Virus record (IMG/VR): IMGVR_UViG_3300009503_001325
Coordinates: 1 to 22,069 of that record
Strand: one strand, 5' to 3'
From: a virus
DNA length: 22,069 bases
Both the position numbers and the translations under genes were made by a program. Under the pieces are notes generated by a model. It was given only the letters and a program-made list of their open reading frames with translations. It was not told the DNA's origin and did no database searches. Positions 3,851-20,703 of this stretch are shown one piece after another. The stretch's first letter is position 1. Every line of letters begins with the position of its first letter.

Positions 3851-5097
3851 GGACCATTCACCCCCTGACTGGCCTGTTCAGTCACCTCCCGCGCCGTGAG
3901 CACCCCCTCCAGCGCGAGAACCAGGGCTCGCCGGTGCACCTCCCAGGTGTACCTCCGCACCCACTCCAGGGCCCTGGCCACCTTGATCTCCCGCTCGCGC
4001 CGGTGCTCCTCGCTGACCGTGGCCTCCCACAGCCGGCGAGCCGCATCGCTCACATCCACCACGGGGCGCGGGTGGTAGTCAAAGCCATAGGCGAACTGCT
4101 CCCCTCTACAGCGTATGAGCCAACCCCGCTCCTCGGCCTCCCCCACGAGCTCAGTAGTTGCGCTGTTACGAGGGCCGACGAACGGCACGCCGACCGCGAA
4201 GGCCTCCGTGGTGGAGAACCCCCAGCCCTCCCCCATGGAGACTGACAACACCACGTCAGCGCAGCCGTAGATCAGACGCATCTGCTCCACAGCGACGTCG
4301 GAGATCCCCTCTACGTACTCCGATGGTGCCAGGATGAACTCCCCCGCCGCCAGGTCGAAATCGAGATCCTGGGCCATCAGCTTCAGCGGGGCCCCGCATG
4401 GCGCATCGTGAGAAGCATGCAGGTATAGCCTGGCCCGCCGAGCCAGCAACCGAGAGAAGGCCTTAAAAGCGAGTAGTGCCCGGCCCGGGTCCTTCCGCCA
4501 CTGGTTGCGTCCTACGCTCACCACCAGGATCTCTCCGTCGTCTCCTATCCCGAAAATCCGCCCACGTGCCTCGCGCCTCTCCTCTGCCGTAAGCGGGCGA
4601 AAGGCATGGGTGTCGCAGCCGAGGTAGACGGTCCCGGCCTCGAGCCCCAGCCTGCGCAGCTCCCCCGCCCCCCAATGGGTATAGCAGAGCCAGGACGCAG
4701 TACTCGACTCCTGCGTAATGTCCGATGGATAGAGGCGCCTGTCGACAGGGCAATAGACGACCACGGGCACGTGCTGGCCATCCCTTCTTAGCAGCCGGAT
4801 GAGCTGGGCGGCAAGCGGCACATCGAAGCTGATCAGCACAAAGTCTGGGCGGAAGCGGCGCGCCAGGCGGACGAATGCCGCTCGACCGAGTGTGTCCCCT
4901 TCGCGGTTCACGTGGGCGGCATAGATGGGGAAGGGGTACTCCACAGGATCCACGTAGGCCACGTGGTGATTAACCCCCATGCAAGTGACCTCGCAGCCCG
5001 CTGACAGCAGAGCTTGGATGTTCTCCCGGCAGACAATGCCCAGCCCTGTGTTCACCGCCGGGCTGTCGCCGTAGACCAGGACCTTCGCGCCTATCAC
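3847..5097 (-). CDS. GT-B glycosyltransferase (family 4/1-like)
   Basis: 416 residues, typical for a two-domain GT-B enzyme. The N-terminal Rossmann-like domain starts VLVYGDSPAVNTGLG (7-20), with the glycine-rich acceptor-side loop seen in family 4 enzymes. The C-terminal nucleotide-sugar domain has VSVGRNQWRKD (193-203, Arg197 and Lys202 as likely phosphate contacts) and the EX7E motif with Glu290 and Glu298 in GEGWGFSTTEAF. It transfers a sugar from an activated donor; donor and acceptor cannot be read here. GTG start at 5097 with AGGAGG five bases upstream, and its own promoter at 5115-5144. It heads the operon with portal, lysozyme-like and MuF genes, so it may glycosylate a virion protein; modification of phage DNA or of the host surface is possible. 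A methyltransferase upstream of the regulator could act on the same product. Confidence 0.85.
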   Translation of the reverse strand: MIGAKVLVYGDSPAVNTGLGIVCRENIQALLSAGCEVTCMGVNHHVAYVDPVEYPFPIYAAHVNREGDTLGRAAFVRLARRFRPDFVLISFDVPLAAQLIRLLRRDGQHVPVVVYCPVDRRLYPSDITQESSTASWLCYTHWGAGELRRLGLEAGTVYLGCDTHAFRPLTAEERREARGRIFGIGDDGEILVVSVGRNQWRKDPGRALLAFKAFSRLLARRARLYLHASHDAPCGAPLKLMAQDLDFDLAAGEFILAPSEYVEGISDVAVEQMRLIYGCADVVLSVSMGEGWGFSTTEAFAVGVPFVGPRNSATTELVGEAEERGWLIRCRGEQFAYGFDYHPRPVVDVSDAARRLWEATVSEEHRREREIKVARALEWVRRYTWEVHRRALVLALEGVLTAREVTEQASQGVNGP

Positions 5098-6862: not shown

Positions 6863-7693
6863 TTAACTATCGCTCTCAAGCTTCGAGGGTTGCCGAGAAG
6901 GGTCAACTCGAGAACCCCCCTCTCGGTCTCCTGATCCCTCTTCGCTATACACGTGGCCATCTCGGTGTTCATTCGACGCGGTGTCGGAGCCTATGACCGA
7001 CCAGTCGTTCGATGCGGCCCCCTCGGCCCGACACCGTGTCGGATCCAGCTCCCGGTCATTCCTCGCCTCTATACAGCCCAGGGCCTGCGCCCCGTCCGGG
7101 TCCTCCACCGAGCGCACCTGGAAGGCCTCCTCAGGTGGGACCTCCCGCCATCTAAGGCCTTCCCTGACCGCGCAGCGGAGCGTCACCCACCGGAATCCTT
7201 GGGCGGCGATCCTCAACAGCTCTCTTACCCGGTCCTCCCGATAGAAACGGATCCATCCCCGGTGCCCAAACCAGGACTCCGCCCCCTCCCCTACCGGGAA
7301 GGTCACGAGCACCCCCCGCCGGGCTACCCGGCAGATCTCTGCCATCGCCTTCAAATCCCCGTCGGGGTCGCGGTGCCTGACGCCGTACGGGCGGTGCGGA
7401 AGCCCGATGTGCTCGATCGTCGAGATCGAGAACGCGAAGTCGAAAGCCCGGTCCGGGAAGGGCATGGCCCGGGCGTCGCAGACTACCGAGGGGCCGTACT
7501 CGTAGGGACGGAGATCCACCCCCTCCGCGTTGAACCCCAGGTGCCGCAGGACCGACAGGACGATCGAGTAGCAACAACCGACATCGAGCACGGACACCTC
7601 TGGCGAGGGATCGGGTAGGAATTCGCTCAGCCAGACGAGCTCCTGGGCCCTCTCCCCGCGCGCGCAGAGATATGCGAGTCCCTGGCCTTCCAT
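6863..7693 (-). CDS. Class I SAM-dependent methyltransferase (Methyltransf_11-like) with disordered tail
   Basis: 276 residues. Motif I is VLDVGC (35-40, Asp37), the acidic residue at the end of strand 2 is Asp60 in GVDL, and FDFAFSISTIEHI (84-96) is the post-II region of Methyltransf_11 enzymes. The fold ends near residue 210. The last 65 residues are rich in Ser, Asp, Glu, Gly and Arg and look disordered, and their DNA contains two of the CCGACA-N3-TGTCGG dyads, so the tail may be read-through of regulatory DNA. The ATG at 7693 follows GGAGGTGG; the gene begins 6 bases after the terL stop and is co-transcribed with it. The substrate is unknown; similar enzymes often accompany glycosyltransferases, and one starts the next operon. 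There is no target-recognition domain of a DNA methylase. Confidence 0.8.
   Translation of the reverse strand: MEGQGLAYLCARGERAQELVWLSEFLPDPSPEVSVLDVGCCYSIVLSVLRHLGFNAEGVDLRPYEYGPSVVCDARAMPFPDRAFDFAFSISTIEHIGLPHRPYGVRHRDPDGDLKAMAEICRVARRGVLVTFPVGEGAESWFGHRGWIRFYREDRVRELLRIAAQGFRWVTLRCAVREGLRWREVPPEEAFQVRSVEDPDGAQALGCIEARNDRELDPTRCRAEGAASNDWSVIGSDTASNEHRDGHVYSEEGSGDREGGSRVDPSRQPSKLESDS
6973..6987. repeat. Degenerate copy of the CCGACA-N3-TGTCGG dyad
   Basis: TCGACGCGGTGTCGG matches the consensus in ten of twelve arm positions; the right arm is perfect. It lies in the part of the methyltransferase gene that encodes the low-complexity tail, 55 bases from the perfect copy at 7028. Confidence 0.35.
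7028..7042. repeat. Dyad CCGACA-N3-TGTCGG, copy 2
   Basis: CCGACACCGTGTCGG, perfect arms. It lies within the coding sequence for the disordered tail of the methyltransferase. I found no other perfect copy outside 6.6-7.1 kb when reading the window by eye. Confidence 0.5.
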
Positions 7694-7699
7694 CCTGGA

Positions 7700-9091
7700 T
7701 CACCACCTCCACCTGGGCTCGGAGGGTAACCTCCAGAGAGGCAGCGGGGCCCCCGGGGTACTGGTGCGCCCCACTGCCATGGCGGGATAGTTGGAAACAA
7801 GTATGGGCGCCACCCCCACCCTGGAGCGCTCCAGGCTGGAGAGGATCCCATGGGCCCCGGATAGCGCGTCCACCAGGTCGTCGTGCCTCCCGCCGGGAAA
7901 CTCCGAGAGCTGGCTCAAGAGGTCCCCGTTCCAGCTGGCCCTTACCAGTAGCACGTTCCCCGCCTCTGCCGCCGCGGATAGCGGGCGGGCCCTGGTGACC
8001 TTGTCCCTCGCCGGCCTCGAGGGGCGGACTATGAAGCCGGGCAGGACCAGCCGCTGGAAGTGATCGATGGTCATCACCCCCGAGGCCCCGGGCTCCTGCT
8101 CGATGTAGATCGGGATCCCAGGGCCGTCGAGCTCCGCCGTCTGGCGGACCAGATCCTCGACTCCCGCCGGCGTCGCCCTGGTCCTCCGCACATCCAAAAC
8201 CCAGAACCTGCCCTGCTTGGTAGCCAGGAGGACTCCCGCCGTCCAGTCGGGATCCCTACCCGGGCGGGGCCGGGTTGCCGCCAGGTCCCAGTATCGCACC
8301 GCCTGGCCCTCCCTGGGCCAGTCGTCTACGATCGGGAACCACTCAGGGCGGAAGAGGATCCCCTCCACCGCGTCCCAGTCTCCCTCCAACAGCTGCCGCC
8401 GGGTGACCGGGTCCAAGCGATTCAGGCTCTGGAGGTACGACTCGGCGTCGATGTGAGGGTTATCCGAGAGACGGGCCGGGATGAACACCCGCCCGTGCTT
8501 CTTCCCTTCAATCAGGAACCGCTGCTTTACCCAGCCATGGCCGACATCCCCGGGGTTGGACGCTGAGCGCATGCGCAGGGGCACATTGAGCCCCTGAGGC
8601 CTTCTCAGCCGGCTGAACATGTAGCGATAGGTGACCTCCGAAAACTGCGTCAGCTCGTCAAAGCAGATGGTCTGGAACTGGGCGGAGCGGTAGCGGGTGC
8701 GCTGCCCCTCGGTCATGAGATAGCCGAAGGTCAGGGTGGCCCCGGAGGGGAAGGTCCAGACGTGCTTACGCCCATCCCAGTGCGCCTCCGTGCCGTCCAG
8801 CCACTCGTGGGCAAGGTCGATCAGGGCCCCGGGCAGCGATAGGTCGGTAAAGGTCCGCCGAAGGATGAGGGCGGAGTATCCTGGTGTGTCCACGTATTGG
8901 AGTGCCGCCATGAGCAGGGCGGCGCTTTTCCCTCCCCCGGCCGCGCCCCCGTAGAAGACCTCCAGTGCCGGGCACATAAGGAAGATGGCCTGGCGCTCCG
9001 TGGGCTCTACAGGGATCCAGCGGTTCTCCAGCACCGTGGCGGCAAAGATCGCCAAGTCCTCCGGCGTAGGCTGATACCCCTCCTGGGGCAT
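7700..9091 (-). CDS. terL: Terminase large subunit
   Basis: 463 residues, the DNA-packaging motor with ATPase and nuclease domains. ATPase: Walker A GGAAGGGKS (48-56) and Walker B ICFDE (142-146, Glu146 catalytic), with SASNP (176-180) as the likely coupling motif. Nuclease (RNase H fold): RYWDLA (266-271, Asp269), IEQEPG (330-335), and HDDLVDAL (403-410) with the metal-binding aspartates. The length is normal and all catalytic residues are present. ATG at 9091 lies 20 bases after terS; the stop at 7700 almost abuts the methyltransferase. It partners with TerS and the portal ring at the procapsid. Packaging type (cos or pac) is not assigned. Confidence 0.95.
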   Translation of the reverse strand: MPQEGYQPTPEDLAIFAATVLENRWIPVEPTERQAIFLMCPALEVFYGGAAGGGKSAALLMAALQYVDTPGYSALILRRTFTDLSLPGALIDLAHEWLDGTEAHWDGRKHVWTFPSGATLTFGYLMTEGQRTRYRSAQFQTICFDELTQFSEVTYRYMFSRLRRPQGLNVPLRMRSASNPGDVGHGWVKQRFLIEGKKHGRVFIPARLSDNPHIDAESYLQSLNRLDPVTRRQLLEGDWDAVEGILFRPEWFPIVDDWPREGQAVRYWDLAATRPRPGRDPDWTAGVLLATKQGRFWVLDVRRTRATPAGVEDLVRQTAELDGPGIPIYIEQEPGASGVMTIDHFQRLVLPGFIVRPSRPARDKVTRARPLSAAAEAGNVLLVRASWNGDLLSQLSEFPGGRHDDLVDALSGAHGILSSLERSRVGVAPILVSNYPAMAVGRTSTPGAPLPLWRLPSEPRWRW

Positions 9092-9774: not shown

Positions 9775-10647
9775 TCAGCCGGTGGGGCCAAACCCCTGCT
9801 CACCTCTCAGGGAAGGGTCGAGGCTCTCGACTTCCAGGATCCGCACCCGGCCTGGCAGAGGTATGAGGATGAGCTGGGCCAGGCGCATCCCCCGCCGCAC
9901 CAGGAACGGTCCGTCGCTGAGGTTGCGAACGCTGGCAAATAGCTCACCCCGCCAGCCGTTGTCGACCACCCCCGGCTGGACGAGCAGGTTGTGCCGGCGA
10001 AGGGCCGAGCTCCTCCCGATGATCAGGCCCCAGAATCCCGGCGGTAGCTGGACGCGCACGCCGGTGGGGACGTCGAGGGTCTCACCCGGCATAATCATCA
10101 GCTCCTCGGATGACGCCAGGTCCAGGCCCGCGTCTCCGGGATAGTGGCGAACGGGCAGAGAGCCTCCCGGGCCGAGCTGTACCTTCAGTACCTGCCGCGC
10201 CGCGCATAGCTCCCAGACGAGCTCCTGAGGGGCCTGCTGCCGCGCGCGGTGCGCAGCGAGCTCCCGCCTTAGGGCCTCCAGCCCTTCAGACACCTTCCCC
10301 TTCACCACCCGCACTCCCTCCAAGCCCTGGAAGGCCACGTGGTGGGCTTCCCCCACCATCGCTACCGTGGGGATCCCCCGCCTGGAGGCCATGAGCAGCT
10401 CCCAGACCGTACCCACGTGCCTGCAGGGCAGCCATAGCTCAGCGAGGACCGCCCCCGCCGCGCTCAGGGCCACGCGGTTGATCCAGAGGATGGACTCAGC
10501 GTCCTCCCCTCCCCCGTTCCACGAGAAGGCCCCCGCCGGGTCATAGACGCTGTACCCGGCTTGGGCCAGTAGCTCACGGGCCTCCTGCCTCCAGGCTTGC
10601 GCCTCGGGTATAGCGTCATCTATCGCCCCAGCCAAGTAGACGAGCAC
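9775..10647 (-). CDS. Deoxyribosyltransferase-like domain fused to dUTPase
   Basis: 290 residues with two domains. Residues 1-135 resemble the nucleoside 2-deoxyribosyltransferase family: VYLAGAID (3-10), YDPAGAF (35-41), and HVGTVWELLMA (77-87) with Glu83 as likely nucleophile. This fold cleaves or transfers the N-glycosidic bond of deoxynucleosides or dNMPs. Residues 148-290 are a trimeric dUTPase with all five motifs in order: DAGLDL (172-177), GRSSAL (211-216), GVVDNGWRGE (226-235, Asp229 catalytic), RRGMRLAQLIL (251-261), RGEQGFGPTG (281-290). The sugar-stacking Tyr of motif 3 is Trp232. dUTPase lowers dUTP and supplies dUMP. GTG start at 10647 with a GGAGGGAGG site, 16 bases after the MazG-like gene. 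The fusion groups two activities on deoxynucleotides beside PurZ; the first domain could act on an unwanted deoxynucleotide, which is inference. Confidence 0.85.
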   Translation of the reverse strand: MLVYLAGAIDDAIPEAQAWRQEARELLAQAGYSVYDPAGAFSWNGGGEDAESILWINRVALSAAGAVLAELWLPCRHVGTVWELLMASRRGIPTVAMVGEAHHVAFQGLEGVRVVKGKVSEGLEALRRELAAHRARQQAPQELVWELCAARQVLKVQLGPGGSLPVRHYPGDAGLDLASSEELMIMPGETLDVPTGVRVQLPPGFWGLIIGRSSALRRHNLLVQPGVVDNGWRGELFASVRNLSDGPFLVRRGMRLAQLILIPLPGRVRILEVESLDPSLRGEQGFGPTG

Positions 10648-10663
10648 CCCAGATCCCTCCCTC

Positions 10664-10978
10664 CTACCACTTTACTCCGCGCCGGCAGACCAGGGCGATC
10701 AGCCCATAGCCCACCAGGTCCTTCCAAGTGTCCTCGAGCGTCTCCTCCGTAGCCGGCTCGCGGATGGCGGAGCCGCCCCCCTCAATTACGCCCCTCAAGT
10801 TGAGGTTGTGGAGGCGCATCGCCTTGTCGATAACGCGGACGGTTAGGCCCAGCTCACCGCCTGTTAGCCTGATGTTCTCCGATCCGTAGTCCCTGCTCTT
10901 GCGCAGAAGCATGGCGGTGATTTCCCTGGTTACCTCCTCCAGGGCCCTCGCCTTCTCCTCCTCGCTTGCCGCCACCAA
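10664..10978 (-). CDS. MazG-like / DUF1599 (Nmad1) all-alpha protein, candidate MazZ
   Basis: 104 residues, all helical by inspection. KSRDYGSEN (27-35), VIDKAMRL (49-56) and EETLEDTWKDLVGY (78-91) match my memory of the DUF1599 nucleotide-modification-associated domain, an all-alpha NTP pyrophosphohydrolase relative in which spaced acids (Glu79, Glu82, Asp83, Asp87) bind Mg2+. In Z-genome phages a MazG-like enzyme, MazZ, turns dGTP into dGMP, the substrate of PurZ, and can also remove dATP. This gene directly follows the purZ-like gene by three bases, so the same role is proposed here. The start is TTG at 10978, six bases after AGGAGG that overlaps the previous stop. Family membership is fairly clear, the reaction less so. 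Confidence 0.65.
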   Translation of the reverse strand: MVAASEEEKARALEEVTREITAMLLRKSRDYGSENIRLTGGELGLTVRVIDKAMRLHNLNLRGVIEGGGSAIREPATEETLEDTWKDLVGYGLIALVCRRGVKW

Positions 10979-10981
10979 ACG

Positions 10982-12055
10982 TCACCTCCTCTTCTCTCGT
11001 ACCAGCTCTCTCCAAGCCGTGCAGCACGTCCCCCTGCCGCATCCGGCATACACCAGGCGCGTCCCCGACGCGGAGGTCAGAGACTCCACCACTTGCCCGA
11101 TCGGGGTATGGGCGTGGAGCAGCGCGCAGGACTCCATCTCCTCATGGACACCGGTCCCTAACGGGCAGCCGGCCTCCGGGAAGCCGGGTAAATAGTCCAG
11201 GAAGGATACCGCCAGCAGGTCGGGCCCCGCCAGGCACACCGCCCGGAGGAATTCGGGCCACTCAAAGAGCCCGATGCGCCTCTTCCGCCCCGTGGTGGTA
11301 GTCAGCTCCGGCTCACGTCCGATGTCCGCCCAGTCCACCTCATGGCGCAACGGGCCAGAATCTCCCCCCACGCGGATAGGGAAGGTCCGGACCACCCCGA
11401 CCACATGGGTCACTCGCAGCGGTGGGATCCCCACCTCCCCCAGGACAGCCCCTGGCGTGGTATCTGCGCTTGTGCAGTGGGGCCAGGGGCCATGTATCAG
11501 GGATAGGCCGATCCCCTGCGTGCCCTCGATTACTGTGACTCCCCGCTCGTGCGCGCGCAGCAGCTCCATGTACTCCGCGTCAGTGATGAGGAAGGGGCGG
11601 AGAGAGGGCGCCTGGGCGGCGGGGATCCAGCCGCAGCGTGGTAGCCGACTAATCCTCGCTCGCCGCGCCTCCCCCACCCCCTGGGCCGTGGAGCCTATGG
11701 CGGCCTGGATCTCCCTTTCCGCCTCCCGGTGCATCGCGGTAATCACCCCGGCGGCCTCGTGGATGAAGAACCGCCCCTCCACCTGGATTCCCGCTGCGCG
11801 CAGCTCGGAGATCTCCATTGCCAGCCGTGCCGGGTCCACCAGCCCCCCAGGCCCCAGGGCGGTCAGCGCCCGCGGAGCGATGATGGCGGCGGGGATGTGG
11901 TGGAGCTTCACCACCGCCCCCTCGCCAGTCACCACCGTGTGCCCTGCATTGGGGCCCCCTGATCTTAGCCCCAGGGTCGTCCATGGAGCCAGCGATGCCG
12001 CCACCTGCCCCTTTCCCTCGCTCCCGTATTGAAGTCCCGCGATGACGATAACCAT
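10982..12055 (-). CDS. purZ: PurZ-like adenylosuccinate synthetase homologue (2-aminoadenine pathway)
   Basis: 357 residues, against about 430 for bacterial PurA. The PurA fold is plain: GLQYGSEGKGQ (7-17), GGPNAGHT (33-40, His39), EGTQGIGL (177-184), TSADTTPG (195-202), TTTGRKRRIG (253-262, aspartate loop). In PurA the first motif reads GDEGKGK and the Asp is the catalytic base; here it is Ser12, the change reported for phage PurZ. PurZ joins dGMP and aspartate to N6-succino-2-aminodeoxyadenylate, which host PurB and kinases carry on to dZTP. The TKLD nucleotide motif of PurA is SFLD here (284-287), suggesting a donor other than GTP. The ATG at 12055 has GGAGG seven bases upstream and overlaps the preceding stop (TGATG). 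A short PurA that makes AMP is the alternative, disfavoured by Ser12 and by the MazG-like neighbour. Confidence 0.85.
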   Translation of the reverse strand: MVIVIAGLQYGSEGKGQVAASLAPWTTLGLRSGGPNAGHTVVTGEGAVVKLHHIPAAIIAPRALTALGPGGLVDPARLAMEISELRAAGIQVEGRFFIHEAAGVITAMHREAEREIQAAIGSTAQGVGEARRARISRLPRCGWIPAAQAPSLRPFLITDAEYMELLRAHERGVTVIEGTQGIGLSLIHGPWPHCTSADTTPGAVLGEVGIPPLRVTHVVGVVRTFPIRVGGDSGPLRHEVDWADIGREPELTTTTGRKRRIGLFEWPEFLRAVCLAGPDLLAVSFLDYLPGFPEAGCPLGTGVHEEMESCALLHAHTPIGQVVESLTSASGTRLVYAGCGRGTCCTAWRELVREKRR

Positions 12056-12528
12056 CACTCTCCCTCCTTCTCCTCACCCTTCTCGGGCCCGGACAGAGGC
12101 CGACCATGGGCGTCACACGCCGGCTTCTTGCCGAACCTCAACCAATACAGCCCATGCATGACTGCGTCCCTGGCGTGCTCCCCCAGCTTAAGGTCCCCCA
12201 AGTCCACGAAGCTCCGGAGGTCCTTCCCCAGGAAGTAGATCTTCGCGGATGGAGGCTGCAGTACGACGCGGTGATCCCCGGCAAGCCAGCGCAGTACGCC
12301 GATTACCTGGACAGCGGTTAGCCGGCTGAATGGGGCGGAGCCGGGCCAGGACTGGTAATCCTCCACCACATAGATCCCGCCCTGGGGTAGGGCCTGGGAG
12401 ATGCGGTGGAGCAGCTCACGCCACGGGCACTCTCCCGCCCCTACGAAGGTCTCCCCGCTCCAGAGGGCCCACCCGCAGGTGTCGCCGGGATCCACTGCCC
12501 AGAGCGGGCCGTGCCACTTCGGACTCAC
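12055..12528 (-). CDS. RuvC-like Holliday junction resolvase / RNase H-fold endonuclease
   Basis: 157 residues from GTG 12528, which overlaps the polymerase stop as GTGA behind a GGAGGTGG site; the frame is open farther upstream but that part reads as a shadow of the polymerase gene. RuvC features: AVDPGDTCGWALW (11-23, Asp13) on strand 1, YVVEDYQSW (53-61, Glu56), and GEHARDAVMHGLYW (116-129, His118 and Asp121) as the C-terminal acidic motif. These enzymes cut four-way junctions or branched replication intermediates before packaging. The C-terminal 25 residues are charged and probably disordered. It is shorter than E. coli RuvC (173), as is common in phage versions. Confidence 0.78.
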   Translation of the reverse strand: MSPKWHGPLWAVDPGDTCGWALWSGETFVGAGECPWRELLHRISQALPQGGIYVVEDYQSWPGSAPFSRLTAVQVIGVLRWLAGDHRVVLQPPSAKIYFLGKDLRSFVDLGDLKLGEHARDAVMHGLYWLRFGKKPACDAHGRPLSGPEKGEEKEGE

Positions 12529-14258
12529 ACCACCACCTCCCTCTTCTTTGCCCAGGACGTGCCGCAGGATATGTCCACCTTCAGCGGCACGAGCTCGAAG
12601 AACTCGAAGTCCTCCATCGCCTCCACGATCTCGGGGACGGCCCAATCCGCCCCCTCCGGCAGTTCGACGATAAGCTCGTCATGGATCTGGGCGACTATCG
12701 AGCCGCCTGCCCGGCGGGCGATCTCCTGCACCCGGACCATTGCCCTGCGCATCACGTCCGCACAGCCGCCGCTAATCAGCGTCTGCAGCACCTTGTGCCC
12801 CGGCAAAGAGGAGGTATCGCGCCGGCGTCCTGTCCAGTAATAGATGTAGCCACGCGTGCGGGCGACGCGCTCTACTTCCTGCGTCAGGGCCCGCACGCGG
12901 GGATAGACCTCTCGGTGTCGCCGTATTAGCTCCTGGGCCCTCTCAGGGGTGAGACCCCAAAGGCGGGCCAGGGCATGAGGGCCGGTACCGTACACCAGGC
13001 CGAAGTTGACGCGCTTGGCATCCCGCCTGGATACGCCAAGCAGCTCCGCCGTAGCCTGATGAATGTCCTGCCCCTCCCGGAAAGCCTGGACCATCGCCGG
13101 CTCCTCCGCGTAGTTCGCCAGGGTACGGAGCTCCATCTGGCTATAGTCGAAGAACCATAGCCTACAGCCCGGACTGGCGACGATTACCTCCCTCTCCCGG
13201 TGTATCTCGTCGGGGTGGGGCAGGCCCTGCAGGTTGGGGTTGCTGCAGGCAATGCGTCCTGTTACGTAACCTACCTGGTTGAGCTGAGGGTGCAGCCTTC
13301 CGTCCACGGTTAACTCCTGCAGGCTACGATAGGTGGCCCGGGCCTTTACCCAGGACCGGTACTCAAGTAGCAGGCGTACGAAGGGGTGGTCCACAGAGGC
13401 CAGGCTAAGCTCCGAGGTGGACACCTCGCCAGTAGCCGTGCTAAGGGCCCCCTCGATTCCCAGGCGCCTCAGTTGATCGGCCACCTGCCGAGTACTGCTA
13501 AGCCTGATCTCCCGGCCGATCATTCTTCGGGCTGCCTCCTCCAGCTCCGTTATCCGGCGACTGCACTCCTGCTCGAGCTCGATGCACCGGGATAGGTCCA
13601 CGCAGACGCCGTACTCCTCCACCTGCTGTAGCGTGCGGAGGAGTCTCATGTCCCATTCCGCCACCTCAAGGATCCGGTGATCTATCTGGGCGAGATCCGA
13701 TAGCCTCGCCCACTGCGCCTGCGCAAGCCGCCAGGTAAGCTCCACGTCCTTACACGCATAGGCGCCCAGGATATCAGGCGGCACCCAGTCGAACCGCCAG
13801 TTCCCCTCCTCGTCCTTCAGGCGGTTCTCAGCCAGGTACCGCTTCAGCTCGTCCTGGAGCTGGCTGGCATGAGGATCCACCGACTTCGCCAGCGCCTTCA
13901 GGGCGAAGGATGGCTCGTCTGGATTGAGCAGGAAGGCGCCGATCATGGTGTCCCAGATTCGCGCCTCCCGCTTAGGGCGGATTCCCTCCGCAGCGAGCAT
14001 GTGGAGGTCAAACTTCAGGTTGTGGCCAATGAGGACGTCAGCCTGACTGAGTAGCAGCTCCAGGCGAAACTTGGCCTCCTGCTCCGACCGCTGGTGCTGC
14101 TCCGCGCCGGTATAGAAGAGCGTGGGCCGATCGGGCAGCCTGTGGCGGAAGGCCACGTAGTAAGGCTCCCGCCCGTCGACCATGGCGGCCCACCCGCAGA
14201 TCCGGGCCCCCCGCCAAGGGTAGAGCCCGGATGTCTCCGTGTCGATCACTACCAGCAT
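12525..14258 (-). CDS. Family A DNA polymerase with 3'-5' exonuclease
   Basis: 577 residues from ATG 14258, chosen because AAAGGAGG precedes it; the upstream extension overlaps the primase gene. Exonuclease: IDTETSG (5-11, Asp6/Glu8), GHNLKFD (78-84, Asp84), YACKD (167-171). Polymerase: TGRIACSNPNLQGLP (333-347), motif A DYSQMELR (371-378), motif B RRDAKRVNFGLVYG (411-424, Lys415, Phe419), motif C HDE (526-528). All catalytic residues are present. There is no 5'-3' exonuclease domain, as expected of a phage replicase. Placed two genes before a PurZ homologue, it may be the dZTP-preferring type called DpoZ, but selectivity cannot be read from these motifs. Confidence 0.94.
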   Translation of the reverse strand: MLVVIDTETSGLYPWRGARICGWAAMVDGREPYYVAFRHRLPDRPTLFYTGAEQHQRSEQEAKFRLELLLSQADVLIGHNLKFDLHMLAAEGIRPKREARIWDTMIGAFLLNPDEPSFALKALAKSVDPHASQLQDELKRYLAENRLKDEEGNWRFDWVPPDILGAYACKDVELTWRLAQAQWARLSDLAQIDHRILEVAEWDMRLLRTLQQVEEYGVCVDLSRCIELEQECSRRITELEEAARRMIGREIRLSSTRQVADQLRRLGIEGALSTATGEVSTSELSLASVDHPFVRLLLEYRSWVKARATYRSLQELTVDGRLHPQLNQVGYVTGRIACSNPNLQGLPHPDEIHREREVIVASPGCRLWFFDYSQMELRTLANYAEEPAMVQAFREGQDIHQATAELLGVSRRDAKRVNFGLVYGTGPHALARLWGLTPERAQELIRRHREVYPRVRALTQEVERVARTRGYIYYWTGRRRDTSSLPGHKVLQTLISGGCADVMRRAMVRVQEIARRAGGSIVAQIHDELIVELPEGADWAVPEIVEAMEDFEFFELVPLKVDISCGTSWAKKREVVV

Positions 14259-14269
14259 GTCCCCTCCTT

Positions 14270-17188
14270 TCAGAAGCGAAGTTTCCTTCTCCGCGCTGCC
14301 GGCGCGGCTTGCCCGGCGGCCCAATGCAGGAACCGGTTAGCTGCCTCCGTCTTGCGCCAGTAGTTGGCCTGGTGGCGGAGGAGTCCACGCCGGGTCATCC
14401 AAGCAAACAGCTCCTTGACCTGCGCGCGCTCAAGTCCGGAGGAGGCCTCGAATGCGCTGACGGAGAGGTAGTCGTCGCCCATGAGCGCGTCAAGCACCTC
14501 GGGCCATACGCTGCCGAGCATGTCCTGCACCTCCTCCAGCAGGCGCTCCATGTCCGCTAACCTGACCGGTGCCTGCCGCCTGGCATATTGCTCGTATTCG
14601 AGCCCGCGGTACAGCTCCTGCATGTATTCCGCGGCGAACTCGACATGCGCCGGATGTACGATCAGCTCGTCTCCGTCCCCTCCCGCGCTGAACAGCCGGG
14701 CCGCCACGGCGGCAGATACCCTGGCGAGCTTGAACCGGAAGTCCGCGGCGCTCACCAGCGGTATGTCGCATTCGGTCCCCTCCTGCGCCCGGGCCAGGGC
14801 GAGGATGTACTCCTCCGCGTCTGGTGTGAAGATCACCTGCTCTGGGCGGCGCGTCCAGGCCCAGAGTACCAGGTCGCGGCAGAGATCCGCCGTGTACACG
14901 TGCCGGACATCCCTCATTGCTGAGATGTGCTGGTTCATCACCTCCGGAGGCACCTCTCCCGCCTTTACCGCCACCGCGAGATCCAGGCGGGCGATGTCCT
15001 CACTCTTGGAAAAGATCGTCCGGATGGCCTGTACTGCGTAGGTGTAGGACGCTATCGCCCTGCCCGTCCTGGGGTTCGTGATGAAGATCAGTCGCGTGCG
15101 GGCCGGGGTCTGGGCTGAGACCACGCGCCGTACCTCGGCTATACCGGAGCTTCGGAGATCCGACATGAGCGCGATCTCCTCCTCGTCCAGGCCGCCGAAC
15201 TCGTCGATGATCACCAGGCGGCGGTCGTTCATGGGGATTACTCCCCAGGACAGGAACCACCCCTGGCTCTCCTGCAGGTTATAGACTAGCCCGGTACGAG
15301 AAGCCGTCTCCCCGCTAATCCTCAGGCCCAACCCGTAGTGGTCGCGGATCCGCTCGGCTATCTGGCTCTTCCCCTCCCTCGTGTCCCCGATGATGAGGGT
15401 CTGAAGCCAGCCCCTGCGATGCGTCTCACCTTGGAAACGGAAGCCGATCACGCTGTGGTAGGTCAGATCCACCGCCATCGCCACGAGCTGGCGCCCCCAG
15501 ATGCGCGTGACATTGCGCTCCAGGTCCTGGTGGATCTCCTCCATCTTGGCGGCTATCGTCTGCCCAGGCGCGGGCTGGAATAGCCGGCTAAGCTGCTCCC
15601 TCCTCTCCTCGCTAAGCGTAAACTTCGCCAGTGATCCTGATATGGGCTCGGCCTTCCGGATCAGTATCACCACCGTTTGGCTGCGAGGATCCGGGATGGG
15701 CCGCGCCTCAAGCCGGTACTCCTGCCCGGCGCGGAGGGTCTCCTTCCCCTCGCTTAGGTAATAGCCGCGCCGGACCACGTACTCCCCCTCATCAGGGCGA
15801 GGGATGAGTCGCACTTCCTGCACGCCTACGTATGACGTAGGCCGAACCCGCGCAGCGTGGCAATTCTGGGGCACGCGTAGTGCGGCTCTCATCGCTCCTC
15901 GCACCAGGGTGTCAGAGGCGGAAGTCATGGAGACGATCTGCCTCTCACTGAGCTCCGCCTCCGACTTTCCCCCCGCCGCGGCGACTGGGCAGCGGGAGCA
16001 CCGCGACTCCGGAGAGGCCGAGGGCACGCACTCCACCTCGCACCGCTCCGGCACGAGAAAGGGGCTGATACCCTGCCCAGAGACCATCACCTCCAGCGCT
16101 ATAAGCCGGCCCGCGAGATCCACCTGGCCCGTCTGGTCCAGGGTCGCCTCCACCGGCAGCTCCTCCTGCCTGACCACCACCTCGCACCGCCCGGGGCAAA
16201 ATACCCCCAGTCCTCTCATCACGGAGCAGGAGAAGTAGTAATCATCGTGATCGTAGACGGTACGGATCACGGAGAGCGTGGCGGCCTCCAGTCTTCTCCC
16301 CCTCGCACTGGTGAGATCCTTGGGAGTCCGCTTCGCCCATTCAAGCAGGGCGCGCTCCACGCGGTCCTGGGGCCACCCCAGCGCCTTCATCAGGGTGGAC
16401 AGGCAAAGGGTGGCCTTGTTCCTGGTTCCTGCCACTCGCAGGTGGTTATGGAGGAGATCCTGCGCGCACGGAGGCAGCGGGGATCCCTCCACCACCCGGT
16501 ACTCGGGCCGCGAGATCCGGAGCTCCTCGTACCGCTTCACCATTGAGCTATACCAGGCGGCGGCATCGGATATAGCATCCTGACTTCGCCACTGCTTCTC
16601 CGGCCTCGGCCCCTTCGCTAAGGCCCTTATCTTCGAGGGCGAGAGCTCAAGCTCCGAGGGCTCCAGCTCGACCTTGAACAGCCTGCTCGACGGGTGGACC
16701 GTTCCGGGTACGCGCCACATGCGGCGGGCGGTGTAGACGGCGGGATCCACCGTCTCCAGCCTGAGCAAGGACCGCAGCTCCTCCGCTATGAACCGGAAGA
16801 CGCGGTGAAGGTCCGGGCGGCCCTGGACTCCCAGGGCCTGCCCGTTGACCAGCACGTGGATCCCACGAGCCCCGCTAAACCAGAAGCGCACGTCGCCCTC
16901 CAGCCCCAGCGTCCTGGCGAAGAACTGATGGAGCTTGCGGGCGTCGGACAGGACGCGCGCGAGATCCTGCGCGTCTCCGTGCGCGTCCAGGTCGAAGTAC
17001 AGGTCGGCCCAGGTATCCTCACCTTCGACCGCCTCCGGATTAGCGAACCGCTGGACGGTGGCGAAGACGTTGTAGCCCCCGGCTTCAAGCGCCACCGCCG
17101 GCAGCTCCCGGACGGGGATCCTCCGCCACCGCTCAAAGCCGCCCCCCGGAGGAGCATACGTCACCTCCACATAGGGGTAGCCTTCCAT
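14270..17188 (-). CDS. Archaeo-eukaryotic primase fused to MCM-like AAA+ helicase
   Basis: 972 residues. N-terminal primase (about 1-200): DLYFDLDAH (62-70, catalytic Asp66 and Asp68), FSGARGIHVLV (104-114, His111), and MWRVPGTVH (157-165), the AEP signatures. Middle: a helical segment and Cys-rich sites at 321, 331, 335 and at 383, 387, 397, 400, probably zinc or iron-sulfur. C-terminal ATPase: Walker A IGDTREGKSQ (600-609), Walker B LVIIDEF (658-664), sensor 1 FITNP (702-706), and SEDIARLDL (729-737) as MCM-type arginine finger. A winged-helix-like end covers about 900-955. One protein thus primes and unwinds. AEP-MCM fusions are known in Bacillus prophages and other mobile elements. ATG 17188 follows GGGGGAG, 17 bases after the preceding gene. 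The MCM call, against other AAA+ types, rests on the Walker B and arginine-finger context. Confidence 0.87.
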   Translation of the reverse strand: MEGYPYVEVTYAPPGGGFERWRRIPVRELPAVALEAGGYNVFATVQRFANPEAVEGEDTWADLYFDLDAHGDAQDLARVLSDARKLHQFFARTLGLEGDVRFWFSGARGIHVLVNGQALGVQGRPDLHRVFRFIAEELRSLLRLETVDPAVYTARRMWRVPGTVHPSSRLFKVELEPSELELSPSKIRALAKGPRPEKQWRSQDAISDAAAWYSSMVKRYEELRISRPEYRVVEGSPLPPCAQDLLHNHLRVAGTRNKATLCLSTLMKALGWPQDRVERALLEWAKRTPKDLTSARGRRLEAATLSVIRTVYDHDDYYFSCSVMRGLGVFCPGRCEVVVRQEELPVEATLDQTGQVDLAGRLIALEVMVSGQGISPFLVPERCEVECVPSASPESRCSRCPVAAAGGKSEAELSERQIVSMTSASDTLVRGAMRAALRVPQNCHAARVRPTSYVGVQEVRLIPRPDEGEYVVRRGYYLSEGKETLRAGQEYRLEARPIPDPRSQTVVILIRKAEPISGSLAKFTLSEERREQLSRLFQPAPGQTIAAKMEEIHQDLERNVTRIWGRQLVAMAVDLTYHSVIGFRFQGETHRRGWLQTLIIGDTREGKSQIAERIRDHYGLGLRISGETASRTGLVYNLQESQGWFLSWGVIPMNDRRLVIIDEFGGLDEEEIALMSDLRSSGIAEVRRVVSAQTPARTRLIFITNPRTGRAIASYTYAVQAIRTIFSKSEDIARLDLAVAVKAGEVPPEVMNQHISAMRDVRHVYTADLCRDLVLWAWTRRPEQVIFTPDAEEYILALARAQEGTECDIPLVSAADFRFKLARVSAAVAARLFSAGGDGDELIVHPAHVEFAAEYMQELYRGLEYEQYARRQAPVRLADMERLLEEVQDMLGSVWPEVLDALMGDDYLSVSAFEASSGLERAQVKELFAWMTRRGLLRHQANYWRKTEAANRFLHWAAGQAAPAARRRKLRF

Positions 17189-17205: not shown

Positions 17206-17610
17206 TTAGAACAGCAGCGGGCGCCCGGCCCCCTTCGCCTGGTCCGCCACCTGCGGCGCTTTTCCCGCGGGCAGGAACCGCGCTATGTCTTCCCGCTCCT
17301 CACCGTTGCGCTCGCGGGTCACGACCTCAGCGATGACCCGTCGGCCTATGTAGTCCTCAGGCTCGAACTCGAACTCTCCCTCTGCTCGCTCGCCCAGGGC
17401 CCGCAATAGTGCCTGGAGTCGCCAGAGGGCCTGGGGCTGCAGGCTCATGGTGAAGAAGAGCCTACGCCCTGGCTCCCCTTCCAACAGCCGGAAGGTCCAA
17501 GTGACTACCGGCTGGCCCGAGGTCTTGCCCTCACCGAGCATAGCGTCCTCGATCTCCACGAGATACCTGCCCGGCTGGAGGACTTTCCTCTCCTCGAAGT
17601 AGAGCCTCAT
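17206..17610 (-). CDS. DUF669-type protein, probable ssDNA-binding partner
   Basis: 134 residues. YLVEIEDAML, a GQPVVTWTFRLLEGEPGRRLFF stretch split around 33-54, and LRALGE followed by a beta region with GRRVIAEVV fit my memory of the phage DUF669 family, which forms an OB-like beta structure and is found next to Sak4-type ATPases and helicases. The tail ends GAGRPLLF: a hydrophobic tip, but without the acidic run of canonical SSB. The ATG at 17610 overlaps the Sak4-like gene stop (TAATG) with GGAGG upstream. Its role as single-strand binder is inferred from family and operon. Confidence 0.62.
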   Translation of the reverse strand: MRLYFEERKVLQPGRYLVEIEDAMLGEGKTSGQPVVTWTFRLLEGEPGRRLFFTMSLQPQALWRLQALLRALGERAEGEFEFEPEDYIGRRVIAEVVTRERNGEEREDIARFLPAGKAPQVADQAKGAGRPLLF

Positions 17611-18344
17611 TACTGTCCCTCCTTTCCCTCTGTAACCTGGATGAGCCGAATGATCCTCTCGAAGTGCGGATCTTCCATGACGCCCCCAAGGGCGCCTGAC
17701 CGGTCCTTCGCTATGAACGACACCCCCGGCTGGGTAAATAGCAGCCTTCGCAGGCCGTCCTCGGTCTCTGAGACCACCAGCCTTCCCACCACATCTACGT
17801 AGGCGCAGACGTCGCCCGCGAGCTTGTCGCTCAGGGCGGGCTGATAGGTGATCTCGCCGGAGCGCTCGTCGCGCACCTCCTTCTCCATACTCACAAAGAC
17901 GACGTGCATGGGGAGATCCCGGAAGGCCCGGACGATTCTCCGCATACGCTGCGTGTTCTTGCCCCAGTCGGAGAGCGTAGGCATGTCATCCCTGTAGGGA
18001 TGGCGCGGCTCCAGCTCAAGGATCTCGTCCATAAGCCTCCTCTGGAGCTCGGTCAGGCTGTCGATTACGACGGTCTGGTATCCGTGGTCTTCGCGCAGGA
18101 ACCAGAACGCCTCGGTCACCTCTTCGTAGCGGGTGATGGTCAGGACATCCACGTCCCTATCCCGCGGTATGCCCAGCGTGCCCCCTTCGCAGTCCAGGAT
18201 GATCGGCTTGGGCGCGGACGACGCGAGGTAGGTCTTCCCTACCCCCGGCCGCCCATAGATGAGCACCTTGACGTAAGGGGTTACCTCTCCCAGTCTCCGT
18301 ATCCTCCTCGCGATCCCCGCGCCGTCAGAGCTCTGCTGCGCCAT
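17610..18344 (-). CDS. Sak4-like RecA-fold ATPase (phage recombination)
   Basis: 244 residues. Walker A GRPGVGKT (31-38) after VKVLIY, Walker B TVVIDSLTEL (91-100), and a later strand VVFVSMEKEV (148-157) followed by polar residues. This is the compact RecA core without extra domains seen in phage Sak4-type proteins (P-loop phage nucleotide-binding proteins), which help single-strand annealing or recombination with an SSB. The neighbour order nuclease, Sak4, DUF669, helicase-primase is typical for that family. ATG 18344 lies seven bases after AGGAGG and overlaps the nuclease gene by 20 bases. A general AAA ATPase of unknown role is the alternative. Confidence 0.8.
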   Translation of the reverse strand: MAQQSSDGAGIARRIRRLGEVTPYVKVLIYGRPGVGKTYLASSAPKPIILDCEGGTLGIPRDRDVDVLTITRYEEVTEAFWFLREDHGYQTVVIDSLTELQRRLMDEILELEPRHPYRDDMPTLSDWGKNTQRMRRIVRAFRDLPMHVVFVSMEKEVRDERSGEITYQPALSDKLAGDVCAYVDVVGRLVVSETEDGLRRLLFTQPGVSFIAKDRSGALGGVMEDPHFERIIRLIQVTEGKEGQ

Positions 18345-19308
18345 CGAACTCCCTCCTTTCCCGGGCGTATAGCTCGAAGGCCTCGACGGGCACGCCCTTC
18401 AGATCCGCGATGCAGGGCTCTTGGTACGGGCAACTCGCGCATAACGGCCCTGAGGCGCGATAGATTGGCGACTTCCCCGCCCTGGCCCGGCGGATCTCAA
18501 GGGTTATCCGGTAGGTCTCCTCGGCTATGGCCCGTAACTCCTCCTCCGTCTTTGCGACGCGGTACCGGTCGAAGAACTTGCCGCGCTGCTCAAAGTAGGC
18601 TATCTCCTCCGCGTAGTCCTCCGGATCCAGCCCCGCGTCGATAACGGCCTGCCTGTAGGTCTCCGCATCCGTATCTATGTCCTTCCTCCTGCTAATCCCA
18701 CCTCCCTTCAGCAACTGAGGCCTTGTCGGCACCTTGCGCCTCGCCAGGTTATAGATAGCGCCCGCCGGCCTGTGGCGCCGGAGGGCCCAGAGGTAGAGGC
18801 TCACCTGGTAGGCCAGCTCATCGAGGCCGTAATCGAAGCGTGAGACCAGCTTGTGCTCAACGATCCAGAGCCTCTCCTCCTCGTCCACCACCAGGAGATC
18901 TACAACACCCCGAAGGACGCCGGCGGTGAATCCTGGCCTGCGTATCCTGCACCGGAAGGGCCACTCCACGGCTATGACCCGCCACCTATCCTGGGGTGCC
19001 ACGATCGTAGTGTAGCGGTGAAAGATCGCGACCGTCTCCTCCACCTGCGCCTGCAGCTCGTCGTCCATCTCTATACTGCCGTCCCTCGATGCTCTACTCC
19101 ACCAGGATGACACTACGGCCTGCCAGCCTATGGCTTTAGCCCCGGCGCGCCCCCTATAGAAGTCCGCCAATAGCTCATGGTAGAGGCTGCCCATTGCCAG
19201 CGCCCTGGGCGGCGTCGGTGGTTCGAGGCCAAGGGCGTAGGCGTACAGCCAGCGCTGCCGGCATCTCGCGAAGGTCGAGATCTCAGAGTAGCTCGTCTCT
19301 ATGGTCAC
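18325..19308 (-). CDS. PD-(D/E)XK nuclease, RecB/Cas4-like, with probable Fe-S cysteines
   Basis: 327 residues. YSEISTFARCRQRW (7-20) is the entry motif of RecB-family nucleases; then GSLYHELL (40-47, His44), GVVDLL (134-139, Asp137), WIVEHKL (148-154, Glu151 and Lys153) and QVSLYLWAL (168-176, the QxxxY motif). Cys16 and C-x2-C-x5-C at 290, 293 and 299 reproduce the four-cysteine arrangement that binds an iron-sulfur cluster in Cas4 and AddB. It probably resects DNA ends to single strands for the Sak4-like ATPase, replacing an alkaline exonuclease. GTG 19308 with GGAGGT five bases upstream; overlaps the helicase gene by 26 bases. No CRISPR array or other cas gene is here, so a Cas role is not proposed. 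Confidence 0.85.
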   Translation of the reverse strand: MTIETSYSEISTFARCRQRWLYAYALGLEPPTPPRALAMGSLYHELLADFYRGRAGAKAIGWQAVVSSWWSRASRDGSIEMDDELQAQVEETVAIFHRYTTIVAPQDRWRVIAVEWPFRCRIRRPGFTAGVLRGVVDLLVVDEEERLWIVEHKLVSRFDYGLDELAYQVSLYLWALRRHRPAGAIYNLARRKVPTRPQLLKGGGISRRKDIDTDAETYRQAVIDAGLDPEDYAEEIAYFEQRGKFFDRYRVAKTEEELRAIAEETYRITLEIRRARAGKSPIYRASGPLCASCPYQEPCIADLKGVPVEAFELYARERREFDGAAEL

Positions 19309-20614
19309 TTTCCACCTCCCCTCTCAACGCTCCCCTTAGCGCCTCAGTATCGAGAATCAGGCTACTGAGCCTGCTAATCGTTAGACCGCCGGTGTGCACC
19401 GCGAGGTCTATAGTCCTCTTGCAGAGGAGCCTTATTACCTGGGTGCCCCGCGCGGTCCCCCCTGGGCGAATTGCGCGGCTCACGGCCTGCTCGTTGCGGT
19501 GCGGGTTCCAATCCAGGTCCGTGAAGATGACGAGGTCCGCACCCGCCAACGAGAGCGCCTCTCCCGCCGCGCGGATCGTGCAGAGCACGGTGGAGATATC
19601 CCCCGCCCTGAACCGGCGAGCGACCTCAGCCCGAGCCGCCTCGGATTCTGATCCCGTAATCCTCCCGGCGCCAGGGATCCTCTCCTGCAGCAACCTAAGG
19701 GTCGCCGCGAACCCGGAGAAGATCACGGCCCGCTGTCCCTCGGATAGAGAAGTGCAGGCCTCAAGCTTCGGCCCCTCCTCCGGGAACCCGAGCATCAGCG
19801 GGGAGACAGCGAGCTGTCGTAGTCGCGTACACCTCGCGAGGACGGTTGGAGCGTCAAGGCGCTGGCCCTCGAGCTCAGCCACCATCTCCTCCTCCATGCC
19901 ACGGTATAGCGCCGCCTGGCGGTCGCTCATCTCCAGCAGGATGGGCTGATCAATGCGTTCGGGAAGCTCCTGCAGTTCACTCCTCACCCGGCGCAGGACC
20001 AACCCCTGGAGCTCCTTACTGAGCCCCTCGGGATCCCGGCATTCCCCAACCTTCCAGCCCCAGGGCGTGATCTCCACGTAGCACCATCTCTCCACCCACC
20101 GCCAATACGAACGGAAGAGGTCTGGCCTCGCGATGTGCAAGAGGCTCCAGAGCTCATGGGTCTTGTAGAAGGGCGTGCCCGTGAGCAGCCAGGCGTAGCG
20201 CGCCCTGCGGGCCAAAGTGTACGCCGCTCGCGTGGTCTTCGCCTTGCGGTTCTTGACGCGGTGCGCCTCGTCCAGGACCACGCCCTGGGGCCGGAGCGCG
20301 AGTAGCCTGGGCTCCGCGAGGAGCTGCTCGTAGTTAACGACCAGCACGTCCGGATCGGCGGAGAGATCCAGGCCCCGCTTCCTGTCCAGGGCCAGCACTT
20401 CGAGATCCGGGGCCCATAGCCTGGCCTCGCTTAGCCAGACCTCCCTGGCTACCAGGGGTGCGACTACGATCCAGGGGCGCGCCCGCGAACGGCGCATGGC
20501 GGAGAGGGCCTGGGCCGTCTTGCCCAGGCCCATCTGATCCGCCAGTATACACCGCTCCCGCTCAAGCAGGAAGGCTACTCCCTCCTCTTGGTAGGCTCTT
20601 AATGCCAGAGTCAC
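19283..20614 (-). CDS. SNF2-type superfamily 2 helicase/translocase
   Basis: 443 residues. LRAYQEEGV (5-13), motif I DQMGLGKT (26-33), VVNYEQLL (92-99), motif II DEAH (115-118), motif III LLTGTP (143-148), then a C-terminal RecA lobe with a TIRAAGEALSL segment, FTDLDWNP and QAVSRAIRPG (motifs V-VI). This is the phage SNF2 form without accessory domains; it translocates on duplex DNA and may remodel forks or strip proteins. Start: GTG 20614, because AGGGGG stands seven bases upstream and GTGA overlaps the stop of the 30-codon gene; the in-frame ATG (20620) directly abuts the SD-like run and the earlier GTG (20635) has no site. Both termini are complete. Confidence 0.88.
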   Translation of the reverse strand: MTLALRAYQEEGVAFLLERERCILADQMGLGKTAQALSAMRRSRARPWIVVAPLVAREVWLSEARLWAPDLEVLALDRKRGLDLSADPDVLVVNYEQLLAEPRLLALRPQGVVLDEAHRVKNRKAKTTRAAYTLARRARYAWLLTGTPFYKTHELWSLLHIARPDLFRSYWRWVERWCYVEITPWGWKVGECRDPEGLSKELQGLVLRRVRSELQELPERIDQPILLEMSDRQAALYRGMEEEMVAELEGQRLDAPTVLARCTRLRQLAVSPLMLGFPEEGPKLEACTSLSEGQRAVIFSGFAATLRLLQERIPGAGRITGSESEAARAEVARRFRAGDISTVLCTIRAAGEALSLAGADLVIFTDLDWNPHRNEQAVSRAIRPGGTARGTQVIRLLCKRTIDLAVHTGGLTISRLSSLILDTEALRGALRGEVESDHRDELL

Positions 20615-20703
20615 TGCCATTCCCCCTGGGGCCACACGAAGATCTCAGGGTCCTTGATGTACCAGGTGATCCGGCGCCTACTCTCATGTACAGCAATCTC
20701 CAT
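20611..20703 (-). CDS. Small protein of 30 residues, unknown
   Basis: ATG 20703 is preceded by AAGGGGGGTGG and ends in a TGA that overlaps the helicase start (GTGA). It begins 13 bases after the 71-residue gene. The product starts MEIAVHESRRR and continues as a charged, aromatic peptide (ITWYIKDPEIFVWP), unlike the Gly/Pro/Arg-rich spurious frames of this GC-rich sequence. Good ribosome site, tight spacing and the coupled stop-start argue that it is translated. No family is recognised. Confidence 0.55.
   Translation of the reverse strand: MEIAVHESRRRITWYIKDPEIFVWPQGEWQ

Follow-up and report, generated by a model that had tools for sequence, protein, structure and literature searches.

A likely 2-aminoadenine synthesis cluster in an uncultured tailed virus with a primase-MCM replication module

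The minus strand of IMG/VR record IMGVR_UViG_3300009503_001325 carries a gene cluster (positions 14258–9775) that raises the question of whether this virus builds its DNA with 2-aminoadenine (Z) in place of adenine. The DNA analyzed, hereafter the window, is one complete linear IMG/VR record of 22,069 bases, probably a genome fragment, with a G+C content of 63–69% along its entire length. The original prediction had proposed a candidate Z-genome phage, and this is still the best reading, based on gene identities, gene order, active-site residues, tree placement and recurrence in other contigs. Specifically, we consider it very likely that the locus is a Z-DNA synthesis cluster of the PurZ0/DmtZ-DutZ type, belonging to an uncultured tailed virus with a primase-MCM replication module. 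The enzyme activities, and the replacement of A by Z in virion DNA, are inferred from sequence.

In the order of transcription, genes for an SNF2 helicase, a Cas4-type exonuclease, Sak4, a DUF669-like protein, the primase-MCM fusion, a family A DNA polymerase (PolA), a RuvC-like protein, PurZ, a DUF1599-like protein and a fusion of nucleoside deoxyribosyltransferase (NDT) and dUTPase domains are followed by the small and large terminase, methyltransferase, glycosyltransferase and portal genes. In the proposed pathway, DutZ (and the DUF1599 protein) would convert dATP and dGTP to dAMP and dGMP, and PurZ would combine dGMP with aspartate into the precursor of dZMP. PurB and kinases, either from the host or from a missing part of the virus, would complete the synthesis of dZTP; no PurB was found in the 22-kb record. 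DmtZ would destroy dAMP and could move its deoxyribose phosphate to free Z base, and PolA would then replicate the genome, using dZTP, in a cell low in dATP.

The PurZ-type synthetase, the DmtZ-DutZ fusion and known Z-phages

The purZ gene (10982–12058, minus strand) has its stop at 10982 and starts with either ATG at 12055 (357 residues) or GTG at 12058 (358 residues), in agreement with the short adenylosuccinate synthetase homologue originally predicted. Its product, a putative PurZ0-like 2-aminoadenylosuccinate synthetase, matched Pfam Adenylsucc_synt (E = 1.1e-48) and PHROG 1211, '2-aminooxy adenylosuccinate synthetase' (E = 8.9e-65), and its relatives with solved structures include phiVC8 PurZ, S-2L PurZ and archaeal PurA. 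Ser12, said to replace the catalytic Asp of PurA, does so in the alignment, where it lies within QYGSEGKG and both Escherichia coli and Thermococcus PurA have Asp. To map the dGMP pocket, the window protein was aligned on S-2L PurZ using the residue list from PMC8342488. The pocket is kept (Tyr10, Gly11, Ser12, Asn36, Ala37, Gly121, Ser122, Thr123, Arg137, Gln180, Cys194, Thr195, Arg228 and Val229), the exception being His193 where S-2L has Tyr. Residues unique to PurZ include the counterparts of window Ser12 and Thr252 (PMC8342488). The three PurZ-specific features (S23, T273 and an insertion after V241 in S-2L numbering) appear here as Ser12, Thr252 and a GDSG insertion, which together with Ser122 (Thr in PurA) set the window protein apart from E. 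coli and Thermococcus PurA. At the position of S-2L Gln308, which faces the donor base, the window has Asp287, as do PurZ0 and PurA, so the donor nucleotide is probably GTP.

A tree with PurA and known PurZ, suggested as a check in the original prediction, grouped the window protein with all phage PurZ in one clade (support 98/93, and 99/97 in a second tree) and set PurA apart at 100/100. In the free trees, it fell near the homologue from contig L037 and near the PurZ clade, outside the 100/100 PurZ0 clade.

Downstream, a 290-residue open reading frame (9775–10647, minus strand) joins an N-terminal NDT domain (Pfam Nuc_deoxyrib_tr, E = 1.9e-6, just below the cut-off) to a C-terminal dUTPase domain (E = 5.7e-25) within the PurZ cluster. 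Based on Pfam, tblastn and active-site residues, we annotated it as a DmtZ-DutZ fusion, comprising a predicted NDT-type dAMP hydrolase/transferase and a dUTPase-fold dATP/dGTP diphosphatase. Full-length tblastn matches were to Wayne-type Arthrobacter and Streptomyces phages (best 33.9% identity, E = 4e-29). Ghobes DmtZ has a Tyr6/Asn77/Glu103 triad together with Asp12, Pro57 and a Trp124 lid (PMC12884076); window Tyr4, Asp10, Pro37, Asn57 and Glu83 correspond to Ghobes Tyr6, Asp12, Pro57, Asn77 and Glu103, which were probed in that study, and Trp124 is replaced by Val104, as in many purZ-linked DmtZ proteins. The window protein also has Asn where most NDT hydrolases carry Asp. In Wayne-type phages the NDT and Dut domains are fused; DutZ cleaves both dATP and dGTP, and DmtZ hydrolyzes dAMP and passes its deoxyribose phosphate to base Z (PMC12884076). 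The predicted deoxyribosyltransferase-dUTPase fusion is thus real, but it does not extend the known gene set: dutZ occurs in 98 of 98 PurZ0 genomes and dmtZ in 85, fused in 77 of those 85 (PMC12884076).

Most of the Z gene set was in fact described in 2026 in PurZ0 phages, of which Wayne, HunterDalle and Korravirus, and also Hiyaavirus Keanu and Galactica, have the fused DmtZ-DutZ (PMC12884076). In HunterDalle, which is Wayne-type, the genes follow the window order: Cas4 exonuclease, RecA-like protein, small protein, primase-polymerase-helicase, PolA, PurZ0, an NTP-pyrophosphatase-type gene and DmtZ-DutZ. DUF5664 stands there where the window has DUF1599, and the primase-helicase is a different one. 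More generally, PurZ0 phages share with the window a PurZ with Ser, PolA, the DmtZ-DutZ fusion, the absence of DatZ and a near-identical gene order. They differ in having DUF5664, a primase/polymerase-helicase and a DpoZ-1 polymerase, whereas the window has DUF1599, primase-MCM and a polymerase outside the DpoZ-1 clade, and their named PurZ0 proteins are only 28–33% identical to window PurZ. With the PurZ/DatZ/MazZ phages (S-2L, phiVC8 and SH-Ab 15497), the window has in common dGMP-pocket residues and, presumably, PurZ chemistry; unlike them, it lacks DatZ, MazZ/DUF550 and the long PurZ insertion after Val229, and its polymerase is not DpoZ-2. A search for an HD-domain DatZ, also part of the original prediction, found nothing at E 10 within the 22-kb record, itself incomplete; this absence is expected for the PurZ0/DmtZ-DutZ set, and the search is moot for PurZ0-type phages.

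Dozens of viral contigs carry versions of this gene set. Two of them, L037 (also L364; IMGVR_UViG_3300000558_000025) and L339 (IMGVR_UViG_3300033151_000623), encode Sak4, primase-MCM, PolA, PurZ and the DmtZ-DutZ fusion in the window order, the compared proteins being 29–43% identical to those of the window. They differ in that DUF1599 is fused to the PurZ C terminus in L037 and was not seen in L339. Viral contigs belonging to the third PurZ assemblage repeat Cas4-Sak4-PolA-PurZ-DutZ, with DUF5664, DUF1599 and DmtZ variable. Scans of viral contigs from one sequence recovered a single locus for PurZ and none for primase-MCM, and alignment queries were needed. Compared with the published descriptions that we located, three features of the window are additional: DUF1599 in the MazZ/DUF5664 slot, a polymerase beside DpoZ-1 and a Z cluster within a primase-MCM module, a replication apparatus not observed in named Z-phages.

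Evidence against a Z cluster and rival explanations

Several points weigh against this assignment. The record is a fragment, chemistry is unreadable from sequence, and window PurZ sits on a long branch for which approximately unbiased (AU) tests did not firmly reject other placements: with PurA (P = 0.078), with chromosomal Ser-type proteins (P = 0.16) or inside the PurZ0 clade (P = 0.117). The sister link of PolA to DpoZ-1 and the other purZ-linked polymerases has a support of 83, in a tree whose only non-Z members were one bacterial polymerase and five from phages. Profile comparison (hhalign) gave no significant similarity between DUF1599 and MazZ (E = 0.78). Finally, DUF1599 is also common in phages without purZ: 40 of its 42 relatives had no purZ within 4 kb, and about a quarter of 80 primase-MCM contigs carry it, nearly all without purZ. 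Because the AU tests leave alternatives standing, the PurZ identity of the 357-residue protein depends on pocket residues, tree and neighbors jointly, and these together support it.

The role of the DUF1599 protein is the least certain step. Its gene (10664–10978, minus strand) starts three bases past the PurZ stop, at TTG 10978 or at GTG 10975, which confirms the predicted position of a 'MazG/DUF1599-like' gene; the profile comparison did not bear out the MazG part. The 104-residue product scored below the cut-off against Pfam DUF1599 (PF07659, annotated Nmad1; E = 0.059), and was 33–45% identical to proteins with better matches, including one from L038 that exceeded the cut-off (E = 6.8e-6); by family alignment, fusions in relatives and a structure model, we assign it as a distant DUF1599 member. 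The model is a four-helix protein (predicted local distance difference test score, pLDDT, 82.9). Fold searches returned weak helical-bundle matches only, in which all-alpha NTP pyrophosphatases were mixed with ribosomal proteins (Foldseek best E = 0.97 to RS21-C6/DCTPP1; VIA best Z = 8.2 to 2p06). A PDB sequence search gave no match, hhalign against DUF5664 no significant one (E = 0.21), and a literature search on DUF1599 in phages nothing relevant.

We give roughly even chances to the protein being a dGTP/dATP pyrophosphohydrolase in the MazZ/DUF5664 slot. It is quite possible instead that DUF1599 was left over from the primase-MCM replication module and does something else, outside the Z pathway, as its wide occurrence away from purZ would suggest. 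Against such a leftover, the gene sits between purZ and dmtZ-dutZ in the window. In L037, moreover, PurZ and DUF1599 form a single fused open reading frame, followed three bases on by DmtZ-DutZ, and in L034, L038 and L056 DUF1599 shares one open reading frame with DmtZ. Among purZ loci, DUF1599 was present in 15 rows and DUF5664 in 25, with both in 0, although rows were not all independent and some loci were truncated. The fusions and the mutual exclusion with DUF5664 support a shared pathway with PurZ and DmtZ. At L037 9704–11257, PurZ-DUF1599 is also preceded in frame by an HNH-like N-terminal part, where the sequence contains Ns.

A family A polymerase had been predicted two genes upstream of purZ, and PolA (12525–14258, minus strand; DNA_pol_A, E = 5.7e-76; 3'-5' exonuclease, E = 9.2e-9) is found there, with the RuvC-like gene between. 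Its exonuclease and polymerase motifs are intact. Its nearest polymerases come from other purZ contigs and form a 17-member clade (99*); the tree places the window PolA with this clade and beside DpoZ-1, outside both the DpoZ-1 (100*) and DpoZ-2 (100*) clades. PolA is a candidate DpoZ with a putative preference for Z; its position beside DpoZ-1 has weak support, and it is not a DpoZ of the phiVC8 type. An alternative is a Z cluster with partial or non-essential replacement, in which an ordinary polymerase works while Z is merely raised in the nucleotide pool. We consider this improbable. Motif B (RRDAKRVNFGLVYG) is canonical and uninterrupted, lacking the phiVC8 helix-O insertion, DatZ is absent and the activity of this PurZ lineage is a prediction. 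However, Wayne-type DpoZ also lacks the helix-O insertion (PMC8599892), dATP removal by DutZ and DmtZ appears to be encoded, and S-2L achieves full replacement with an unselective polymerase given dATP removal (PMC8065100, PMC8342488).

Ser12 by itself is weak evidence for PurZ, because genome contigs from bacteria and archaea encode, in their hundreds, Ser-type homologues ~40% identical to the window protein. Across 84,980 species genomes, we found 393 stretches encoding relatives of the query, using motif patterns that held either the catalytic Ser or the neighboring NAGH motif; of the best 79 loci, nearly all had the Ser. Calls of purZ based on the catalytic Ser alone will therefore overcount Z-phages. 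An improbable rival explanation places the window protein functionally with this chromosomal family, acting in conflict or in manipulation of the nucleotide pool, without genome-wide replacement of A by Z. Pocket residues are largely common to the two and the AU test does not reject their grouping, but in trees the chromosomal proteins form clades outside phage PurZ, among which the free tree places the window. The window also has none of the DUF7002 and macro-domain operon partners, and instead encodes DmtZ, DutZ, PolA and DUF1599, arranged as in Z-phages that have been studied by experiment.

The chromosomal operons differ from the window in having either ImmA/IrrE-macro and DUF7002 genes or DCD-like and deoxynucleoside kinase genes. 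In one Ser-type clade, an ImmA/IrrE-macro (DarG-like) gene often lies upstream and a DUF7002 gene downstream (53 loci; for example, L126 7913–9724, L112 5794–9670, L131 6036–9733 and ~50 other genome-contig loci). This arrangement looks like an undescribed conflict or defense operon; a literature search on DUF7002 returned nothing relevant. A second clade, whose operons also resemble conflict operons, adjoins a deoxynucleoside kinase and a DCD/dUTPase-like protein that carries a C-terminal tail (L128 7994–10697, L150, L170 and L124).

The replication module, mosaicism and the host

The primase-MCM fusion noted in the original prediction was confirmed as a 972-residue protein, an archaeo-eukaryotic-type primase joined to an MCM-like helicase (14270–17188, minus strand; phrog_18685, E = 9e-149; phrog_16345 primase, E = 4e-28; MCM, E = 9e-11), and its clustering with Z genes recurs in L037 and L339. 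These were the two of the 80 primase-MCM contigs with purZ; in both, PolA and DmtZ-DutZ are also present and follow the window order. Other primase-MCM contigs carry SNF2, Cas4, Sak4 and MCM at 34–47% identity without Z genes, which gives the Z set the appearance of a cassette inserted into a primase-MCM module. The closest terminase relatives (44–64% identical) are all fragments, and PurZ, PolA and DmtZ-DutZ were not found in their 18–43-kb records. Because these relatives show none of the Z set, the virus appears to be a mosaic. A chimeric contig is less likely, given that the packaging, Z and replication blocks are alike in base composition, codon use and amino-acid bias.

IVYWREL content is 0.463 in the window, compared with 0.37–0.46 in the compared contigs. 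Together with a portal match of the P23-45 type, a large terminase 49% identical to that of Methanothermobacter phage psiM2 and primase-MCM matches in Thermus phages, this is suggestive of a thermophilic host. A bolder reading, which we hold only tentatively and consider rather unlikely, is a third, deep Z-virus lineage whose host is thermophilic, possibly archaeal, and whose Z-DNA is replicated with an MCM-type helicase; DUF1599 would then represent a new dGTP/dATP pyrophosphohydrolase family coupled, and sometimes fused, to PurZ. If the Z-cluster reading itself is correct, Z-genomes would also occur in a virus lineage set apart from the PurZ and PurZ0 phages studied so far. This lineage would probably be thermophilic, would replicate by different machinery and would fill the dGMP-supply slot with another enzyme family. 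DUF1599, an unassigned 'nucleotide modification associated' domain, would become directly testable.

The remaining replication genes, all on the minus strand, encode a DUF669/SSB-like protein (17206–17610, profile match), a Sak4-like RecA-fold protein (17610–18344; phrog_124, E = 3.4e-58), a Cas4/PD-(D/E)XK exonuclease (18325–19308; PDDEXK_1, E = 1.1e-28) and an SNF2-family helicase (19283–20635, profile match). The RuvC-like or resolvase-like gene (12055–12645, minus strand) overlaps polA and has an uncertain start; it matched phrog_1981 of unknown function (E = 5.6e-8), had no Pfam match and no match to a similar-looking open reading frame downstream of the L037 cluster, and was called RuvC-like by eye only. 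The large terminase (7700–9091, minus strand) is 64% identical to that of IMGVR_UViG_3300014879_000004, in whose 30.6-kb record PurZ and PolA were not detected. Between the portal and terminase genes lie a glycosyltransferase (3847–5097) and an S-adenosylmethionine methyltransferase (6863–7693), both on the minus strand. Finally, positions 2–1828 (minus strand) encode a Mu F-like head morphogenesis protein for which Pfam gives only Phage_Mu_F, and whose C-terminal extension is ADP-ribosyltransferase-like by eye (RGTKSEERT, SWSADPTLAMSFAG).

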